Positions 1,016-9,579 of a stretch of 64,000 bases of DNA are shown in pieces. How positions within the stretch are numbered: the first letter of the stretch is position 1; every line of letters begins with the position of its first letter. The stretch is taken from positions 248,001-312,000 of the forward strand of contig NZ_JAUSUH010000005.1 in NCBI RefSeq assembly GCF_030813595.1. The letters run 5' to 3'. A program made the position numbers and the translations under genes. Under the pieces are notes generated by a model. That model searched no databases and had not been told where the DNA came from. It was given only the letters and a program-made list of their open reading frames with translations. This DNA comes from Ancylobacter vacuolatus (lineage in GTDB: Bacteria; Pseudomonadota; Alphaproteobacteria; Rhizobiales; Xanthobacteraceae).

Positions 1016-1079
1016 CTGAAAGGCTCCGGGGTCGGCAGGATGATGGGGCAGGGAGGGCGGGGCGGGACCGCCGGCAGGC

Positions 1080-1160
1080 TCGTCGATTTCTGCGCCCCGT
1101 TCATCGAGTCGCAGGCGCCGTGGCGGTGCCGGAGTGCTTAGCCCATGGCATCTTTCCCGC
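1080..1160 (+). promoter_or_regulatory. Shared operator/promoter element, copy 1 (kinase / T1SS intergenic region)
   Basis: Two 7-base direct repeats, TCGTCGA (1080-1086) and TCATCGA (1101-1107), are offset by 21 bp, two helical turns. This matches the geometry of LytTR-type binding sites (two imperfect half-sites about 21-22 bp apart). A second box, CATGGCATCTTTCCCGC, starts at 1144, 64 bp from the first repeat. The same arrangement recurs upstream of the exoprotein gene at 4343-4424. The sequence match is seen directly; binding by a LytTR regulator is inferred. Confidence 0.6.
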
Positions 1161-1276
1161 GCGGTGCCTAGAGCACGCGCCGACCGGATCGTGCGGCGGC
1201 CCTTCGCTGGCGTGGCGGGTCGCGCGGGTCGCAGGCCGGCGGTTTCCCGGCGGCTCACCGCTCACAGGACTTGCGA

Positions 1277-2998
1277 ATGGCCGTTCTGCCCGTTGCCCGT
1301 GCCCTGTCCTCCTGCCGGCCAGCCTTCCTTGCGGTCGGGGCGTTCTCGGCCGTCATCAACCTGTTGATGCTCGCCGGCTCGCTCTACATGCTGCAGGTCT
1401 ATGACCGGGTGCTGAGCGCGCGCAGCGTGCCGACGCTGGTCGGCCTGTCGCTGCTGCTGCTCGCCGCCTATGCTCTGCAGGGCTTTCTCGACTCGGTGCG
1501 GGTGAAGATGCTGGCCCGCATCGGCGCGCGCTTCGACGAGCAAATCTCCCCGCTCGCCTTCGCCGCCGCCCGCCGGCTGTCGCTGGCCGGACGGCGTGCC
1601 GACGAGGCGCTGCAGCCGATCCGCGACCTCGACCACATCCGGGGATTTCTGGCCTCGCTCGGCCCCACCGCCCTGTTCGACATGCCGTGGATGCCGCTGT
1701 TCTTCGCCGGCTGCTTCCTGCTGCATCCCTGGCTCGGCCTGCTGGCCCTGGGCGGAGGCGCCCTCATCGTCGCGCTGACGCTGGCGACCGAGCGGGCCAG
1801 CCGTTCGGCCCTGAAAGCCCAGATGGCCAGCCGCGCCGCGCGCGAGGCGCTGGCCGAGGCGTGCCGGCGCAATGCCGAGGCGGTCACGGCGATGGGCATG
1901 GGCGGGGCGTTCGGCGGTAAGTGGCTGGAGGCCAACCGGCGCCATGTCGGCGACTGGCTGGCCGCCGCCGATATCACCGGGGCCAGCGGCGCCTTCGCCA
2001 AGATTTTTCGCATGGTGCTGCAATCGGCGGTGCTGGGGCTCGGCGCCTATCTCGCCATCCACGATCAGATTTCCGGCGGGGCGATGATCGCCGCGTCGAT
2101 CATGACCTCGCGGGCGCTGGCGCCGATCGAGATCGCGGTGGCCAACTGGAAGGGCTTCATCGCCGCCCGGCTCGGCCGGCGCCGGCTGGCCGAACTGCTG
2201 GACACGCCTTCCATGGCCGCGCGCGAACCCACCCCGCTGCCGGCGCCGGCCGCCACGCTCACGGCGGACGCGCTCGTGGTGACCGCTCCCGGCCGCGCCG
2301 CGCCGATCGTTACCGGCGTTTCGTTGCGGCTGGAGGCGGGGCAGGGGCTCGGCATTATCGGCCCCAGCGCCTCCGGCAAGTCGACGCTGGTGCGGGCGCT
2401 GGTCGGCGTCTGGCCAGCGCTCAAGGGCGAGGTGCGGCTCGACGGCGCGCGGCTCGACCAATGGGCGCCTGATGCGCTGGGCCGCCATGTCGGTTACCTC
2501 CCGCAGGATGTGGAACTGTTCGACGGCACGGTGGCGGAGAACATCGCCCGCTTCGCCGCCAATGCCACGGGCGACGCCATCCTCGCGGCGGCGCGGGCGG
2601 CGGGGGCACATGAGCTGATCCTGCGGCTGGAACAGGGCTACGACACCCGCATCGGCGAAGGCGGCATGGCGCTTTCCGGCGGGCAGCGCCAGCGCATCGG
2701 GCTGGCCCGCGCGCTCTATGGATCGCCCTTTCTCGTCGTTCTCGACGAGCCCAATTCCAACCTCGACACCCAGGGCGACGCCGCGCTGACCCAGGCGGTG
2801 CAGGGCGTGCGCGCCCGCGGCGGCATCGTGATCGTCGTCACCCATCGCCAGAGCGCCATTGCCGGGCTCGACCGGCTCGCGTTGATGGCCGAGGGCCGGC
2901 TTCAGGCCTTCGGCCCGGCGGAGGAGGTGCTGGCAAAGCTCGCCCGGGAGTCCCGCGTTGCCGGCCTGCCCGGCCTCAAGCCGGCGGTCGCCTCATGA
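1277..2998 (+). CDS. Type I secretion ABC transporter (PrtD/HlyB-like permease-ATPase)
   Basis: Inner-membrane ABC half-transporter of the PrtD family, 573 aa, which energises one-step export of unfolded proteins with a C-terminal signal. An ABC_membrane domain spans residues 15-300. The ATPase has Walker A GPSASGKST near 362, signature LSGGQ at 466-470 and Walker B LVVLDEP near 486. There is no N-terminal C39 peptidase or C39-like domain, as is usual for protease and glycanase exporters. ATG 1277 is preceded by AGGA at a 7-base spacing; an in-frame TTG at 1271 lacks a suitable site. The stop overlaps the start of the membrane-fusion protein by 4 bases (ATGA), so the two are translationally coupled. 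The likely cargo is the 1,705-aa exoprotein downstream. Confidence 0.93.
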   Translation: MAVLPVARALSSCRPAFLAVGAFSAVINLLMLAGSLYMLQVYDRVLSARSVPTLVGLSLLLLAAYALQGFLDSVRVKMLARIGARFDEQISPLAFAAARRLSLAGRRADEALQPIRDLDHIRGFLASLGPTALFDMPWMPLFFAGCFLLHPWLGLLALGGGALIVALTLATERASRSALKAQMASRAAREALAEACRRNAEAVTAMGMGGAFGGKWLEANRRHVGDWLAAADITGASGAFAKIFRMVLQSAVLGLGAYLAIHDQISGGAMIAASIMTSRALAPIEIAVANWKGFIAARLGRRRLAELLDTPSMAAREPTPLPAPAATLTADALVVTAPGRAAPIVTGVSLRLEAGQGLGIIGPSASGKSTLVRALVGVWPALKGEVRLDGARLDQWAPDALGRHVGYLPQDVELFDGTVAENIARFAANATGDAILAAARAAGAHELILRLEQGYDTRIGEGGMALSGGQRQRIGLARALYGSPFLVVLDEPNSNLDTQGDAALTQAVQGVRARGGIVIVVTHRQSAIAGLDRLALMAEGRLQAFGPAEEVLAKLARESRVAGLPGLKPAVAS

Positions 2999-4305
2999 CA
3001 AACGCCTCCGCCTCGGACCATGGCGCCGCGCTTCGCCGGCTGACGCTTCTCGGCGGGGCAGGCGTGCTGCTTTTCGCCGGCACGATCGGCGTCTGGGCGG
3101 TAACGTCGACGCTGACCGGCGCGGTGGTGGCGTCCGGCCAGTTCGTCGTCGACGGCAATGTGAAGAAGGTGCAGCACGCCACCGGCGGCATTGTCGGCGC
3201 GCTCAACGTGCGGGAGGGCGACCGGGTCGAGGAGGGGGCGGTGCTGATCCGGCTCGACGACACCATCACCCGCGCCAATCTCCAGCTGGTCACGCAGCAG
3301 CTCGATGAATTCGCCGCGCGGCGGGCCCGCCTGCAGGCCGAGCGCGACGGGCTCAGCGCGAGCGCTGTCGCGCCGGAACTGGCCGCGCGCGGCGGCGAGC
3401 CAATGATTGCGGCGCTGATCGCCTCCGAGCAGAACCAGTTCGCCGCCCGCCGCGCCGCGCGCGCGGGACGCCAGGCGCAGCTGGCCCGCCGCATCGCGCA
3501 GCTGGAGGACGAGATCGCCGGGCTGCGGGCGCAGCAGGCGGCGCGCGACCGGCAGGCGGTGCTGATCGCCGAGGAACTGGCGGGCGTGCGCGAACTCTAC
3601 GCCAAGAATCTGGTGGCGCTCAGCCGCAAGGCGGCGCTGGAGCGGGAGGCGGCCGAACTCGACGGCGAGAGCGGCCGCCTTGTCGCGGCGGTGGCGCAGG
3701 CCGAGGGCCGGATCGCCGAGACGCGGCTGCAGGTGATCGAGATCGACGACGTGCTGCGCGAAGAGGTGATGAAGGAGCTGGGCGAGATCCAGGCCAAGGC
3801 GGCCGAACTCACCGAGCGTCGCATCGCCGCCGAGGACCAGCTGAAGCGGGTCGACATAAGGGCGCCGAGCGCCGGCTTCGTGCACCAGCTCGCCGTGCAC
3901 ACGGTGGGCGGCGTCATCAGCCCGGCCGAACCGGCGATGCTGATCGTGCCGGCCCGCGAGGCGCTGCAGGTGGAGGCGCGGGTGAACCCGCCTGACATCG
4001 ACCAGATCGTGCCCGGCCAGCCGGCGCAGATCCGCATCCACGCCTTCAACCAGCGCACCACGCCGCAGCTGGCCGGCACGGTGGCCCGCATCTCCGCCGA
4101 TACCAGCCGCGACCCGCAGAGCGGGGCGGTGTTCTACACGCTGCGTGTGGCGATTCCCGCCGGGGAACTGGCGCGGCTCGCGCCGCAGGCGGTGAGCCCG
4201 GGAATGCAGGCGGAGGTGTTCGTCGAGACGCAGGACCGCACGCCGCTGCACTACCTCGTCAAGCCGCTGCAGGACCAGATCGCCCGCGCCTTTCGCGAGC
4301 GCTGA
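2995..4305 (+). CDS. HlyD/PrtE-family periplasmic adaptor of the type I secretion system
   Basis: Membrane-fusion protein (436 aa) linking the ABC transporter to a TolC-type outer-membrane channel. A short cytoplasmic N-terminus and one membrane helix (residues 17-40) are followed by a lipoyl/barrel-sandwich half-motif (VQHATGGIVGALNVREGDRV). Long Ala/Glu/Arg-rich coiled coils cover about residues 95-285, then come the second lipoyl half (DIRAPSAGFVHQLAVHTVGG) and a beta-barrel domain. The sequence ends in a typical PrtE-like tail (PLQDQIARAFRER). The ATG overlaps the stop of the ABC gene. No TolC gene is visible, so a genomic TolC elsewhere is presumably shared. Confidence 0.92.
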   Translation: MTNASASDHGAALRRLTLLGGAGVLLFAGTIGVWAVTSTLTGAVVASGQFVVDGNVKKVQHATGGIVGALNVREGDRVEEGAVLIRLDDTITRANLQLVTQQLDEFAARRARLQAERDGLSASAVAPELAARGGEPMIAALIASEQNQFAARRAARAGRQAQLARRIAQLEDEIAGLRAQQAARDRQAVLIAEELAGVRELYAKNLVALSRKAALEREAAELDGESGRLVAAVAQAEGRIAETRLQVIEIDDVLREEVMKELGEIQAKAAELTERRIAAEDQLKRVDIRAPSAGFVHQLAVHTVGGVISPAEPAMLIVPAREALQVEARVNPPDIDQIVPGQPAQIRIHAFNQRTTPQLAGTVARISADTSRDPQSGAVFYTLRVAIPAGELARLAPQAVSPGMQAEVFVETQDRTPLHYLVKPLQDQIARAFRER

Positions 4306-4342
4306 CCCGGCGGGAGGGCGAGACCCGGCGGGGCGGGCGGAC

Positions 4343-4424
4343 TCGTCGATTTCTGCGCCGCCTTCATCGAGTGGCCGGGAGTGCCCCGGTGATGATGACG
4401 GCGGCTCATGCATTCTTTTGCCGC
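4343..4424 (+). promoter_or_regulatory. Shared operator/promoter element, copy 2 (upstream of the exoprotein)
   Basis: TCGTCGA at 4343-4349 and TCATCGA at 4364-4370 again lie 21 bp apart, with an almost identical spacer (TTTCTGCGCC shared). The second box, CATGCATTCTTTTGCCGC, starts at 4407, exactly 64 bp from the first repeat, as in copy 1. This gives the exoprotein gene its own promoter although it lies only 156 bp behind the membrane-fusion gene. Co-regulation with the transporter genes is inferred from the match. Confidence 0.6.
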
Positions 4425-4461: not shown

Positions 4462-7400
4462 ATGGCCGGTATCCTTTATTCCGCGGAACTGCCTGAATCC
4501 GGCCAGCGGCGCATCGAGAGCTTCGATCCCGCCAGCGACAAGCTCGATCTCGGCACCAATTCGGTGCATGCCTTCATCGTCGTCGACACGCCGGAAGGCG
4601 TCGCCTTCATGGACCCGTGGAGCGGCAAGCAGACGCTGATCGTCGGCGTCTCGCTCGGCCAGCTCACCGTGAACAGCTTCGTGCCTGTTGAGAACGACCA
4701 TCTGCGGCAGGATCTCAGCGGCGCCCTGGCCTGGGAGCACGGCATCACACGCGCGCCGCACACGGTCTATGCCCGCTCGCATGAGGTCGGCCAGATCGAC
4801 CGTGTCGCCTTCAATGCCGAAACGGATGTGGTCGACTTCCGCTATTATGGCACGCGCGAGCAGATCTACATGGTGGACGGCGCTGAGGGCGTGGTCATCG
4901 GCAACTACACCACCGGGCAGACGCTGATCCTGCTCGACACCACCGTGGCCGAGCTGTCCGTGGAGAATTTCCTGTTCCACACCGCGCAGGTGCGGGAAGA
5001 CCGGCTCTTCCTGCAGCTTGGCTTCGCCTCGGTGCCGGAGACGCAGGTGATCGGCCGGGCCGACATTCCCACCGTCGGCAGCGATGCGTGGCCGACCGCC
5101 GCCGGCCCCGGCACGCCGCCGAGCGGCGTCACCGGCACCACCTATCTGATCGACTGGGATTACGGCACCAAGGCCGTGCTCGACTTCGACCCGGCGGTGG
5201 ACCGGCTGGATTTCAAATATTTCCGCCCGGCCGAATTCACCGTGGCGGAGGTGAACGGCTCCACGGTCATCACGATTGTCGGGCAGAACCAGACCTACAC
5301 GCTCACCGGCGTCTCGCTGGCGGAGCTCGACTACAACAACATCGTCGCGGTGGAGGACGCCACCTACCAGAAATGGCGCGGCCTGATCGAGGCGGCGAAT
5401 GCCGGGGGCGACACGCCGACGCTGCGGGTGGCGGATGCCCAGATCACCGAGGGCCAGAGCGGCACGAGCGTGATGAGCTTCACCGTCACGCTGTCCAAGG
5501 CGGCGGCGGGCGTGGTGAGCGTCGATTATTCCACCCTCAACGGCACGGCGCTGGCGGGTTCCGACTACCAGGCCGCCCTCGGCCGGCTGACCTTCCAGCC
5601 CGGCGAGACCAGCAAAACGGTGCAGGTCAATGTGATCGGCGACGCGACGTTCGAGCTCAATGAGGCGTTCGATCTCGTCCTGTCCTCGCCTTCAGGCGCG
5701 ACGCTGGCGGATGAGCGGGCGACCGGCACCCTCGTCAACGACGATGCGCAGGCGCCGAACGTGCTGCCGGCCCTTTCCATCGCCGATCTCTCCGTCGCCG
5801 AGGGCGACGGGGCGCATGTGCATTTCATGTTCATGGTGACGCTGGACAAGGCCTCCACCAGCCCGGTGAGTGTGCAGTACCGCACCGGCAACGGCACCGC
5901 GCTGGCCGGCACGGACTATGAGGCGACCACCGGCACGCTCACCTTCGCGCCGGGCGAGACCGCTAAGCAGATCCATGTCGACGTGATCGGCGACACGCTG
6001 GCGGAAGCCGATGAGCGCTTCACCGTGACCCTGCTCACCCCGACCGGGGCCACCATCGCCGATGGCGAGGCGACCGGAACGCTGCTGAACGACGATGCCG
6101 CCGGGCCGGTGCCAAGCGGCGACAGCCTCGCCTTCGCGGTGGCGAGCAATTGGGGCGCCGGCTTCACCGGGGCGATGACGCTGAAGCCCGTCGCCACGCT
6201 GAATGGCTGGACGGTGGAATTCGACGCCTCCTTCGACATCAGCAACATCTGGAACGCCGAGATCGTCAGCCATGTCGGCGACCACTATGTGATCCGCAAC
6301 GCCAGCTGGAACGGCAAGGTGGCGGCCGGCGGCACGGTGAGCTTCGGCTTTCAGGCCTCGCCCGGCGGGGCGGCGATTGTGGCGGAGGATTTCGTCGTCA
6401 ATGGCAGCCCGGCGGGCGGCGGGACCGACCCGGTGCCTGTGCTGCCGACGCTGGCCATCGCCGATGCGAGCGTGACCGAGGGCAATGACGGCACCGCCTA
6501 TCTCTCCTTCACCGTCACCCTCTCCAAGGCCGCGACCGGCGCGGTCAGCGTCGCCTATGCCAGCGCCAATGGCACGGCGGTGGCGGGGCAGGACTATCAG
6601 GCGGTGTCCGGCACGCTGACCTTCGCCGCCGGCGAGACCTCCAAGGTCATCCGCGTGCCGGTGACGGGCGACACGGTGGTGGAGGCCAATGAGGCGCTGA
6701 CCATCACTCTCTCCAGCCCCTCCGGCGCCACGCTGGCGGATGGGAGCGCGACCGGCACCATCCTCAATGACGATGTGGCGCCTGTTCTGCCGACGCTGGC
6801 CATCGCCGATGCGAGCGTGACCGAGGGCAATGACGGCACCGCCTATCTCTCCTTCACCGTCACCCTGTCCAAGGCCGCGACCAGCGCGGTCAGCGTCGCC
6901 TATGCCAGCGCCAATGGCACGGCGGTGGCGGGGCAGGATTATCAGGCGGTGTCGGGCACGCTGACCTTTGCCGCCGGAGAGACCTCCAAGGTCATCCGCG
7001 TGCCGGTGACGGGCGACACGGTGGTCGAGGCCAATGAGGCGCTGACCATCACTCTCTCCAGCCCCTCCGGCGCCACGCTGGCGGACGGCACCGCGACCGG
7101 TACCATCCTCAATGACGATGTGGCGCCGCCGCCCACCGTCTCGGTATCAGGCACGACCGTGGCGGAAGGCGATGCGGGCGGCGGTGGCGTGGCGGAGGGC
7201 TGGTTCTCCACCTCCGGCAACCAGATCGTCGATTCCGCCGGCCATGCGGTGAAGATCGCCGGGGTGAACTGGTTCGGCTTCGAATCCACCAATGCCTCGC
7301 CGCATGGCGTCTGGACCCGGCCCTACACCGACATGATGGACCAGATGAAGGAGCTGGGCTTCAACACCATTCGCCTGCCCTTCGCCAGCGCCACCCTGCA

Positions 7401-9579
7401 TGCCAGCAGCGCCAGCGGCATCGACTACAACCAGAACCCGGATCTGAAGGGGCTGACGCCGCTTGAGATCATGGACAAGATCGTCGCCTATGCCGAGGAG
7501 ATCGGGCTCAAGATCATTCTCGACCATCACCGCTCCTCCTTCGGCGCCGGCACCTCGGAGAACGGGCTCTGGTACGAAGGCACCTTCACGGAAGCGGCGT
7601 GGATCGACGACTGGCAGATGCTGGCCGAACGCTACGCCGACAGCACCGCCGTCATCGGCGCCGACCTGCACAATGAGCCCCACGCGGGCACCTGGGGCGG
7701 CGGCGGGGCGAACGATTGGGCGGCGGCGGCCGAGCGCGCCGGCAACGCCATTGGCGAGGTCAACGCGAACTGGCTGATCTTCGTCGAGGGCGTCGCTTCC
7801 TATGAGGGCGACAATTACTGGTGGGGCGGCAATCTCCAGGGCGTGCGCGACCGGCCGATCGAGCTCGATGTGCCGAACAAGCTGGTCTATTCGGCGCATG
7901 ACTACGGCAATTCGGTCTATGAGCAGCCCTGGTTCAGCGATCCGGACTTCGCCGCGCAGCTGCCGGAAAAGTTCGACGCGATGTGGGGCTATATCTACCG
8001 CGAGAACATCGCCCCCGTGCTGATCGGCGAGTTCGGCACCAAGCTGCAGGACCCGAAGGACGCGCCCTGGCTGGAGGCGCTGACCTCCTACATGGCCGGC
8101 GATTTCGACAATGACGGCACGCTCGACATCCCCGCTGGGCAGGAAGGCATCAGCTGGACCTATTGGTCGTGGAACCCCAATTCCACCGATACGGGCGGCA
8201 TTCTCGCCGATGACTGGCGCACGGTGAACACGGCCAAGCTCGCCTATCTCGAACCCATCCAGTTCGATCTTGAGGATGATGGCGGCAGCGGTGCCGGCAC
8301 CACTGCGGTGTTCACCGTCACCCTCTCGGCGGCGGCGGCGCAGGCGGTGACGGTCAGCTACCAGACACTGGCGGGCAGCGCCGGGGCCGACGATTTCACG
8401 GCCGCCAGCGGCACGCTGAGCTTCGCGCCGGGCGAGACCAGCAAGACGGTGCGGATCGCCATAACAGGCGACAGCCTCGCCGAGGCCAATGAAAGCTTCA
8501 CGCTCCTGCTGCGCGATGCGCAGGGGGCGGTGATCGGCATCGGGCAGGCGAGCGCTGTCATCGAGGACGACGACGCGGCGGCGCCGGCTTTGCCGTCCTT
8601 CAGCATCAGCGATGCGACGGCGGCGGAGGGCAGCGCCGGCGCGCCCGGCACGCTCACCTTCACAATCAGCCTGTCGCAGGCGGCCGAGGGGCCGGTGAGC
8701 GTGCGCTACGCCACGGCCAATGGCGCGGCGGTGGCGGGGCAGGATTATCAGGCGGTGTCCGGCACGCTGACCTTCGCGGCGGGCGAGACCAGCAAGACGG
8801 TCACGGTCGCCGTGCTCGGCGATGGCGTCCTGGAGGGCCATGAGACGTTCAACCTCGTGCTCTCCAGCCCCGTCGGCGCCACGCTGGCCGATGGCACGGG
8901 ACGCGGCACGATCGAGAATGACGACGCCGCCCCGCCGGCCGGGGGCGACATGGTCGCCTTCTCCGTCGCCAGCAACTGGGGCAGCGGCTTCACCGGCGCG
9001 ATGACGCTGAAGCCGGAGGCGGCGCTGAACGGTTGGACGGTCGAATTCGATGCGCCGTTCGACATCAGCAACATCTGGAACGCCCAGATCGTCAGCCATG
9101 TCGGCGACCATTATGTGGTGCGCAACGCCTCCTGGAACGGCAAGGTGGCGGCGGGAGGCGAGGTGAGCTTCGGCTTCCAGGCCTCACCGGGCGGCGCCGG
9201 CGTGGCGGCGGAGGATTTCGTCGTCAACGGAAAGTCCGTGGGCGAGGCCGAGGCCCCGGCGCTGCGCCTTGCCGCCGTGCCGCTCAGCGACGATGTGATC
9301 GATGCCTCGATCGCGCTGGTGGAGGCGCGCGCCTTCGACTTCACCGCCGAGGTGACGCTGCACACTGACAGCGTCGCGCTCGACGGCTGGACGCTGGACA
9401 TCGCCACGCCCTATGAGATCGCCGCGCTTCAGGGCGCGGAGATCGTCGCGCGGGATGAGGACGGCTATGTCGTGCACGGCCTTGCCGCCACCGGGGCGGT
9501 GGATGCGGGCGCCGATATCCGCTTCCAGCTTGTCGGCCACGGCACGTTCGACAGCGCGCAGTTCGATTTCCTGATCTAA
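4462..9579 (+). CDS. Giant secreted GH5 glycanase with Calx-beta and CBM2 modules
   Basis: 1,705-aa modular exoprotein, predicted cargo of the adjacent type I system. Residues 1-310 hold three repeats of about 60 aa with the pattern FDPxxDxLDF. Calx-beta modules lie at about 318-430, 433-547, 658-772, 776-887 and 1377-1492. CBM2 modules (NGWTVEFD, ISNIWNA, FGFQASPGG) lie at 553-650 and 1494-1592. A GH5 domain (910-1267) has acid/base Glu1072 in HNEPHAG and nucleophile Glu1190 in LIGEFGT. It splits a further Calx-beta module, whose first strand is at about 891-908 and remainder at 1268-1375. A degenerate CBM2-like domain ends the protein. There is no Sec signal and no RTX nonapeptides; the acidic-hydrophobic end (DFLI) resembles type I signals. 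GAGGAG precedes ATG 4462. Cellulose or another beta-glucan is the likely substrate. Confidence 0.9.
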   Translation: MAGILYSAELPESGQRRIESFDPASDKLDLGTNSVHAFIVVDTPEGVAFMDPWSGKQTLIVGVSLGQLTVNSFVPVENDHLRQDLSGALAWEHGITRAPHTVYARSHEVGQIDRVAFNAETDVVDFRYYGTREQIYMVDGAEGVVIGNYTTGQTLILLDTTVAELSVENFLFHTAQVREDRLFLQLGFASVPETQVIGRADIPTVGSDAWPTAAGPGTPPSGVTGTTYLIDWDYGTKAVLDFDPAVDRLDFKYFRPAEFTVAEVNGSTVITIVGQNQTYTLTGVSLAELDYNNIVAVEDATYQKWRGLIEAANAGGDTPTLRVADAQITEGQSGTSVMSFTVTLSKAAAGVVSVDYSTLNGTALAGSDYQAALGRLTFQPGETSKTVQVNVIGDATFELNEAFDLVLSSPSGATLADERATGTLVNDDAQAPNVLPALSIADLSVAEGDGAHVHFMFMVTLDKASTSPVSVQYRTGNGTALAGTDYEATTGTLTFAPGETAKQIHVDVIGDTLAEADERFTVTLLTPTGATIADGEATGTLLNDDAAGPVPSGDSLAFAVASNWGAGFTGAMTLKPVATLNGWTVEFDASFDISNIWNAEIVSHVGDHYVIRNASWNGKVAAGGTVSFGFQASPGGAAIVAEDFVVNGSPAGGGTDPVPVLPTLAIADASVTEGNDGTAYLSFTVTLSKAATGAVSVAYASANGTAVAGQDYQAVSGTLTFAAGETSKVIRVPVTGDTVVEANEALTITLSSPSGATLADGSATGTILNDDVAPVLPTLAIADASVTEGNDGTAYLSFTVTLSKAATSAVSVAYASANGTAVAGQDYQAVSGTLTFAAGETSKVIRVPVTGDTVVEANEALTITLSSPSGATLADGTATGTILNDDVAPPPTVSVSGTTVAEGDAGGGGVAEGWFSTSGNQIVDSAGHAVKIAGVNWFGFESTNASPHGVWTRPYTDMMDQMKELGFNTIRLPFASATLHASSASGIDYNQNPDLKGLTPLEIMDKIVAYAEEIGLKIILDHHRSSFGAGTSENGLWYEGTFTEAAWIDDWQMLAERYADSTAVIGADLHNEPHAGTWGGGGANDWAAAAERAGNAIGEVNANWLIFVEGVASYEGDNYWWGGNLQGVRDRPIELDVPNKLVYSAHDYGNSVYEQPWFSDPDFAAQLPEKFDAMWGYIYRENIAPVLIGEFGTKLQDPKDAPWLEALTSYMAGDFDNDGTLDIPAGQEGISWTYWSWNPNSTDTGGILADDWRTVNTAKLAYLEPIQFDLEDDGGSGAGTTAVFTVTLSAAAAQAVTVSYQTLAGSAGADDFTAASGTLSFAPGETSKTVRIAITGDSLAEANESFTLLLRDAQGAVIGIGQASAVIEDDDAAAPALPSFSISDATAAEGSAGAPGTLTFTISLSQAAEGPVSVRYATANGAAVAGQDYQAVSGTLTFAAGETSKTVTVAVLGDGVLEGHETFNLVLSSPVGATLADGTGRGTIENDDAAPPAGGDMVAFSVASNWGSGFTGAMTLKPEAALNGWTVEFDAPFDISNIWNAQIVSHVGDHYVVRNASWNGKVAAGGEVSFGFQASPGGAGVAAEDFVVNGKSVGEAEAPALRLAAVPLSDDVIDASIALVEARAFDFTAEVTLHTDSVALDGWTLDIATPYEIAALQGAEIVARDEDGYVVHGLAATGAVDAGADIRFQLVGHGTFDSAQFDFLI
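6442..7131 (+). repeat. Near-identical 345-bp tandem duplication inside the exoprotein gene
   Basis: Two copies of a 345-bp (115-codon) unit, 6442-6786 and 6787-7131, encode the third and fourth Calx-beta modules and differ at only a few bases. The two CBM2-coding stretches (about 6145-6375 and 8965-9195) are also very alike. Such identity between neighbouring modules points to recent duplication or gene conversion. Confidence 0.85.

Follow-up and report, generated by a model that had tools for sequence, protein, structure and literature searches.

Rhizobial PrsDE-type type I secretion uses a PrtD-type ATP-binding cassette (ABC) protein and an HlyD adaptor to export glycan-degrading exoproteins. 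Among regulatory systems, the kinase that serves AgrA of Staphylococcus aureus is peptide-sensing and of another type than the kinase considered here, RcoM is a haem sensor, and Afipia, the host of CoxC, is an alphaproteobacterium. In the excerpts of the literature on which our comparisons draw, LytTR sites are described as repeats of 9-11 bases lying 11-13 bases apart, and no consensus is said to be common to the binding sites of LytTR proteins (PMC4847170). YpdB, with a single direct target, recognises a 10-base-pair (bp) direct repeat (PMC4847170), the nearer AgrA repeats centre near -60 (PMC4227749), and CoxC repeats are 18-21 bp apart, which is about two helical turns (PMC11347149). Here we report a candidate LytTR circuit from a 64,000-nucleotide stretch of Ancylobacter vacuolatus (GCF_030813595.1, contig NZ_JAUSUH010000005.1, positions 248,001 to 312,000; hereafter the window), in which two matched 31-bp sites stand before a type I exporter operon and before the gene of a large exoprotein, the cargo. 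We consider it likely, at a probability of roughly 85%, that the adjacent kinase activates a LytTR regulator and that this regulator, bound at both sites, turns on exporter and cargo together.

The two sites are as follows.
1079-1109, plus strand: site copy 1, CTCGTCGATTTCTGCGCC-CCG-TTCATCGAGT, sequence read directly
4342-4372, plus strand: site copy 2, CTCGTCGATTTCTGCGCC-GCC-TTCATCGAGT, sequence read directly

The initial annotation had noticed direct repeats TCGTCGA/TCATCGA with an offset of 21 bp before the transporter and exoprotein genes, 3.2 kilobases (kb) apart, and had called their conservation unlikely by chance; both observations held. The repeats occupy 1080-1086 and 1101-1107 in copy 1 and 4343-4349 and 4364-4370 in copy 2, with the same 21-bp offset, and the copies lie 3263 bp apart. 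The copies are identical at 29 of 31 bases, and 29 was also the best 31-mer identity between the two intergenic gaps, compared with a maximum of 24 across 2000 dinucleotide shuffles. We then searched the 5.02-megabase genome, in which the full 31-bp pattern, with up to three mismatches, was found twice and its reversed control not at all; the pattern is thus not scattered over the genome. A looser pattern, also with up to three mismatches, gave 24 matches (reversed control 2), and only copies 1 and 2 had fewer than two mismatches. The bare pair TCGTCGA-N14-TCATCGA was unspecific, with 646 matches at up to two mismatches, three of them exact (reversed control 45). Therefore, the site is unique in the genome because its spacer and flanks add a specificity that the bare repeat pair does not have. 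A regulon of many sites was rejected, as these own-genome searches yielded two good sites only, and the sequence suggests that the two-component system governs a very small regulon. The window contained no RNA element matching Rfam at the gathering threshold.

The 21-bp offset had been taken as LytTR geometry, and this agrees with the published LytTR sites as far as the excerpts describe them: the repeats are about two helical turns apart and upstream of the predicted -35 element, which places the site in the LytTR class. By profile, the 21-bp offset also holds in relatives. At agr P2/P3 of S. aureus a LytTR regulator, AgrA, likewise uses paired direct repeats of which the nearer lies at about -60, whereas the -35/-10 spacers there are 18 and 20 nucleotides compared with a predicted 17 here (PMC4227749). 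Copy 1 contains CCGTTCATC, the very sequence published as an AlgR site at rhlI (PMC4064291), so that this half-site is common to our locus and the AlgZ/AlgR system of Pseudomonas aeruginosa, with which the kinase also shares a similar H-box and N-box. However, AlgR sites are not necessarily paired and occur at many promoters (PMC4064291), whereas here 21-bp pairs occur at two genomic places. The locus resembles YpdA/YpdB and BtsS/BtsR of Escherichia coli in being a kinase-LytTR pair with a tiny regulon, but the YpdB target is a pyruvate-induced transporter (PMC4847170) and the targets here are a protein exporter and its cargo. CoxC has three repeats and is a membrane-bound one-component carbon monoxide sensor and a repressor, while our locus has two repeats and a two-component pair. 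In contrast to the rhizobial PrsDE-type systems, exporter and cargo here both appear to be under a LytTR switch of their own.

The kinase and its regulator lie at the left edge of the window.
1-1015, continuing past the left edge, minus strand: sensor kinase (PF06580), probable start GTG at 1015 or ATG at 1000
C5:247223-247924 (L012:7223-7924), just outside the window, minus strand: LytTR response regulator of 233 amino acids (PF00072 and PF04397)

The kinase open frame reaches 1258, beyond the probable start. Its PF06580 score of 74.6 bits (cut-off 25.2) and the motifs NPHFLFN, ENAV and GLGLAN identify a PF06580 kinase of the AlgZ/BtsS/YpdA type. A LytS-type kinase divergent from copy 1 had been proposed, and a PF06580 kinase does stand there; however, the LytS label did not hold, as LytS proper carries a LytS-type 5TM sensor domain, whereas PF06580 alone matched the kinase in Pfam at E <= 0.001. 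A crude estimate by hydropathy scan gave two strong membrane stretches. When the gene left of position 1 was read, it proved to encode a receiver-LytTR regulator, which the 3′ end of the kinase gene overlaps by 16 bases. Its receiver (PF00072, 76.5 bits) and LytTR (PF04397, 41.8 bits) domains both exceeded their cut-offs, and FLRAGRS at residue 181 is the counterpart of the conserved FhRhHRS-type motif. The best NCBIfam match was BtsR (NF008677), whose 114.8 bits fall short of the equivalog cut-off of 246, and the best 60 of 177 matches in a search of solved structures align chiefly over the receiver domain. Moreover, the genome has a single LytTR match, this regulator, and a single PF06580 match, this kinase, and their genes stand side by side. 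The pairing of the two is hardly in doubt because each is the genome's sole match to its family.

To follow site and regulator together, we used a set of 101 genomes, our own included, with a regulator match threshold of E <= 1e-20 (genomes and loci are given below by our G and L numbers). The regulator was matched in 19 genomes; in two of these, G070 and G087, the match covered the receiver part only and the loci were not fetched. The 31-mer, with up to three mismatches, was found in nine genomes, all of them among the 19 with the regulator and none among the 82 without it (Fisher p 4e-8; p value and counts ignore the relatedness and shared ancestry of the genomes). All 16 31-mer matches in the nine genomes were within 5 kb of the regulator, and the reversed control gave 0 in every genome. 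A profile of the site found both copies in nine of nine genomes, with an altered spacer in the second copy of G001 and G011. Across these genomes, mean pairwise identity was 94% for copy 1 and 89% for copy 2, compared with 42% and 43% in the 60 bp upstream, and the regulators were down to 67% identical to that of the window.

The cargo follows the same pattern. Strong matches to its N-terminus (E <= 1e-100) occurred in 14 of the 101 genomes, and the regulator was present in all 14; weak partial matches were seen in G009, G016 and G075, which have no regulator match. Among the first 19 regulator loci, 15 carried the cargo and 15 of these 15 the site, nine of which match by construction since they built the profile. 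The cargo was absent from the other four (G008a, G008b, G030a, G046). Gene order varies: in G027 it is kinase, cargo, exporter, with a single site before the cargo, and in G047, G035, G033, G042 and G030 (contig C4) kinase and cargo are direct neighbours facing each other, with one site in between. At L050 (G046), three tandem TTC-type boxes at 21-bp steps, not two, were seen at oriented positions 4853-4904.

A regulator profile was then run on 296 genomes of the family and matched 36, of which 17 were already in hand, 14 were fetched as 16 loci, and five weak ones (G105, G114, G118, G146, G166) were left out. The 16 later loci were scanned with a site profile built from the earlier sites only, and 12 of the 16 carried a site at the kinase gene's 5′ end, including all eight loci with the cargo in view. 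In a few of them the longest kinase open frame runs over the site, the same as in the window, and in G119b the site follows the regulator gene. Over 359,524 positions, the forward profile exceeded 10 bits 16 times, and 13 of these matches were at regulator-linked places; the reversed profile gave 0. All of 80 named-record loci were compared by their genes, and L080-L083 and L086 alone were scanned for the site, L082 and L203 (G116), seemingly a single contig judging from length and match, being counted once. In Reyranella aquatilis (L080) a site of 37.9 bits stands between kinase and cargo; L083 scored 12.8 bits, and the profile scan found none in L086. On a separate note, G259 (L199, C30:121256-122971) carries two LytTR regulator genes about 0.3 kb apart on opposite strands.

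The initial annotation had also placed a second box 64 bp from the first repeat, and this spacing was exact in both copies (starts 1144 and 4407). We predict the following promoter elements.
1126-1131, plus strand: predicted -35 element GTGCCG, weak
1144-1155, plus strand: second box of copy 1, CATGGCATCTTT, predicted extended -10 (TGG at 1146-1148 and CATCTT at 1149-1154), with a predicted RNA start near 1161
4389-4394, plus strand: predicted -35 element GTGATG
4407-4418, plus strand: second box of copy 2, CATGCATTCTTT, predicted extended -10 region, with a predicted RNA start near 4424

Within one genome the second box is weak evidence, as 9 of 12 bases agree in register (p ~0.03); once related genomes are included, their sequences make it convincing. 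In 18 loci outside the two-copy set, TG stood 17 bases past the site (+17) in 11 loci and 36 bases past it (+36) in 13 (three or fewer at other offsets), and CA at +39 in nine (six or fewer at any other offset); this count left out the sites of L048, L050, L081, L083, L196 (contig ends), L202 and L203. The distance from bases 2-3 of a -35 hexamer to the TG of an extended -10 is 19 bp when the spacer is 17 bp. The observed TG-to-TG distance of 19 bp thus fits a -35 element followed, after a spacer of 17 bp, by an extended -10. The second box is therefore most likely an extended -10 with a weak -35 17 bp upstream, rather than a further regulator site, judging from these aligned sequences. The fit to the predicted extended -10 is good in copy 1 (TGG-CATCTT). 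From this predicted promoter, the repeats would lie at about -81 to -75 and -60 to -54, the nearer one at about -57.

Two further observations concern this region. At copy 1 of the two-copy genomes, TGCYTAG-like boxes flank the second box on both sides, with variants in some genomes, and none were seen at copy 2; in the window they are GTGCTTAG and GTGCCTAG, 30 bp apart within 1134-1171. They may belong to a promoter of the kinase operon itself on the opposite strand. That operon might also be autoregulated. In L047 (G033), an extended -10-like box at oriented position 5040 lies 10 bp, about one helical turn, nearer to the site than usual.

According to the mechanism that we propose, the membrane kinase, upon a putative signal, would phosphorylate the adjacent LytTR regulator, and two regulator subunits would then occupy the direct repeats, at about -81 to -75 and -60 to -54, from the same face of the DNA. 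The bound regulator may recruit RNA polymerase to a weak promoter with a spacer of 17 bp between its imperfect -35 and its extended -10. This would happen at both places at once, turning on the exporter, with its ABC protein and HlyD adaptor, as well as the exoprotein with its GH5, CBM2 and Calx-beta domains, which has a promoter of its own. Comparative sequence evidence indicates that the circuit is real: the DNA itself shows the genes and the two sites, and shows that the sites are unique in the genome and conserved together with the regulator. Control by the LytTR pair is very likely, and the regulator likely acts here as an activator.

The regulator might instead repress both promoters, with the kinase signal relieving repression. 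CoxC is a LytTR protein that represses (PMC11347149), and AlgR represses rhlI (PMC4064291). However, the CoxC operator overlaps the -35, whereas both repeats here are upstream of the predicted -35, which in the excerpts of PMC11347149 is the place used by most LytTR activators, and we hold repression to be unlikely. We give still less credence to a different regulator binding the 31-bp site. The link between LytTR protein and site is drawn from sequence, and the conserved spacer exceeds what two LytTR half-sites would strictly need; nevertheless, across the 101 genomes the 31-mer is confined to the surroundings of a LytTR regulator, both the AlgR-like half-site and the offset of 21 bp are in keeping with LytTR as described in the excerpts, and the site stays with the kinase-regulator pair even beside an autotransporter or a LuxR-type gene (see below).

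Two other readings concern single elements. Copy 1 has TGGCA with a GC at sigma-54 distance, so the second box could be read as a sigma-54 promoter (TGGCA ... GC) in place of an extended -10. Sigma-54 promoters have GG-N10-GC at -24/-12, and we know of no LytTR regulator with a sigma-54 activator domain. By eye, however, relatives do not agree in the GG-GC distance, which is 9 or 10 bp in copy 1, and the window's copy 2 has no GG at the right place. As GG-N10-GC spacing is not kept among relatives in this by-eye reading, we rejected sigma-54 as a very improbable explanation. Alternatively, copy 1 may have been duplicated recently to give a functionless copy 2, in line with the 29 of 31 bases shared within the genome. 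Yet both copies persist in nine genomes whose regulators diverge to 67% and whose upstream 60 bp to 42-43% identity, and a site also accompanies the cargo gene in other genera, which leaves duplication the least credible of these readings.

Several points weigh against joint activation of exporter and cargo by the LytTR pair. Regulator binding, activation and effects on expression are inferred from sequence. The AlgR half-site match covers 9 bases and was noticed post hoc, and the other half-sites match less well. Copy 2 has a poor match to a -10, whether ATTCTT is taken or CATTCT with a spacer of 16 bp. Ten of the 19 regulator genomes, G070 and G087 among them, do not have the 31-mer at three mismatches, and the profile scores of G047, G042 and G033 (15.1-16.6 bits) are hardly above the 14.8 of the best background match listed. 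No site was in place in G008b or, by profile scan, in G272, G137a and G161, and the sites of G046 and of the Reyranella metagenome-assembled genome L081 (17.6 bits by profile scan) are weak. Most of the 16 later loci come from the genera that built the profile; in the seven from other genera (G259, G121, G272, G318, G137a, G137b, G161) four had a site. Finally, several genera (G047, G035, G042, G030 contig C4) show no relative of this exporter beside the cargo in the fetched stretch.

The exporter and cargo genes follow the two sites.
1277-2998, plus strand: type I secretion permease/ATPase of the PrtD type (TIGR01842, 698.1 bits, cut-off 510.15)
2995-4305, plus strand: HlyD-type periplasmic adaptor (TIGR01843, 380.1 bits, cut-off 208.65)
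4462-9579, plus strand: exoprotein (cargo) of 1705 amino acids, with Calx-beta, GH5 and CBM2 domain matches

The start of the adaptor gene overlaps the end of the permease gene, and a TolC-type protein is encoded elsewhere in the genome (TIGR01844 at C1:98007-99263, 321.9 bits, cut-off 225.15). With the ABC protein, the HlyD adaptor and the TolC-type protein all over their cut-offs, the set is that of PrtD-type type I secretion. The cargo had been described as a glycanase, and its predicted domains bear this out: six Calx-beta stretches, a GH5 cellulase domain (residues 934-1241) and two CBM2 stretches point to a cellulase-type protein with putative enzyme activity. From the gene order, this exporter most likely secretes this cargo. 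The proposal of a complete sense-and-secrete system stood in that the kinase, regulator, PrtD/HlyD exporter and GH5 cargo genes are present, while its wording on LytS and on the second box was refined as described above. Elsewhere in the Ancylobacter genome (G000), a 775-amino-acid open frame at C1:488265-490418 has a repeat unit in common with the N-terminal part of the cargo, and none of the 24 looser-pattern matches falls at this frame.

We further identified other genes in the place of the cargo. In G121 (L204), G318 (L206) and G137b (L208), a large autotransporter (PF03797) is divergent from the kinase across the site, and the cargo is absent. In G008a (L044) the site stands before a LuxR-type gene whose autoinducer-binding domain was confirmed by Pfam; in G030a (L048) a weaker site of 14.6 bits stands after the regulator and before a LuxR-type gene, again with an autoinducer-binding domain by Pfam. 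In G119b (L202) a 16.2-bit site after the regulator precedes a LuxR-type gene, identified by eye and truncated where the locus ends. Conjugation-type genes, also judged by eye, lie near G008a (L044) and G119b (L202). The output would be a type I secreted glycanase in Ancylobacter, related genera and Reyranella, an autotransporter at three loci and a LuxR-type gene at three loci. We tentatively propose, as a possibility that we would not yet favour over its opposite, that kinase, LytTR regulator and 31-bp site with its rigid promoter form a portable switch placed on varied alphaproteobacterial outputs (type I glycanase, autotransporter, LuxR-type quorum-sensing gene), with a shared signal that would be common to surface contact or crowding.

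The type of switch is already known, and none of the openly licensed papers listed by our searches describes this circuit as a regulon; judged by title and the start of the abstract, none of the Ancylobacter cellulase papers concerns it. The locus provides a complete circuit, with kinase, regulator, two sites, exporter and cargo, for a regulator class whose sites are said to have no common consensus. Its 36 aligned site instances, many of them alike, let the binding code and the promoter spacing be read directly. Moreover, the exchange of one output for another (type I cargo, autotransporter, LuxR-type gene) opens a route to the signals that such kinases detect.

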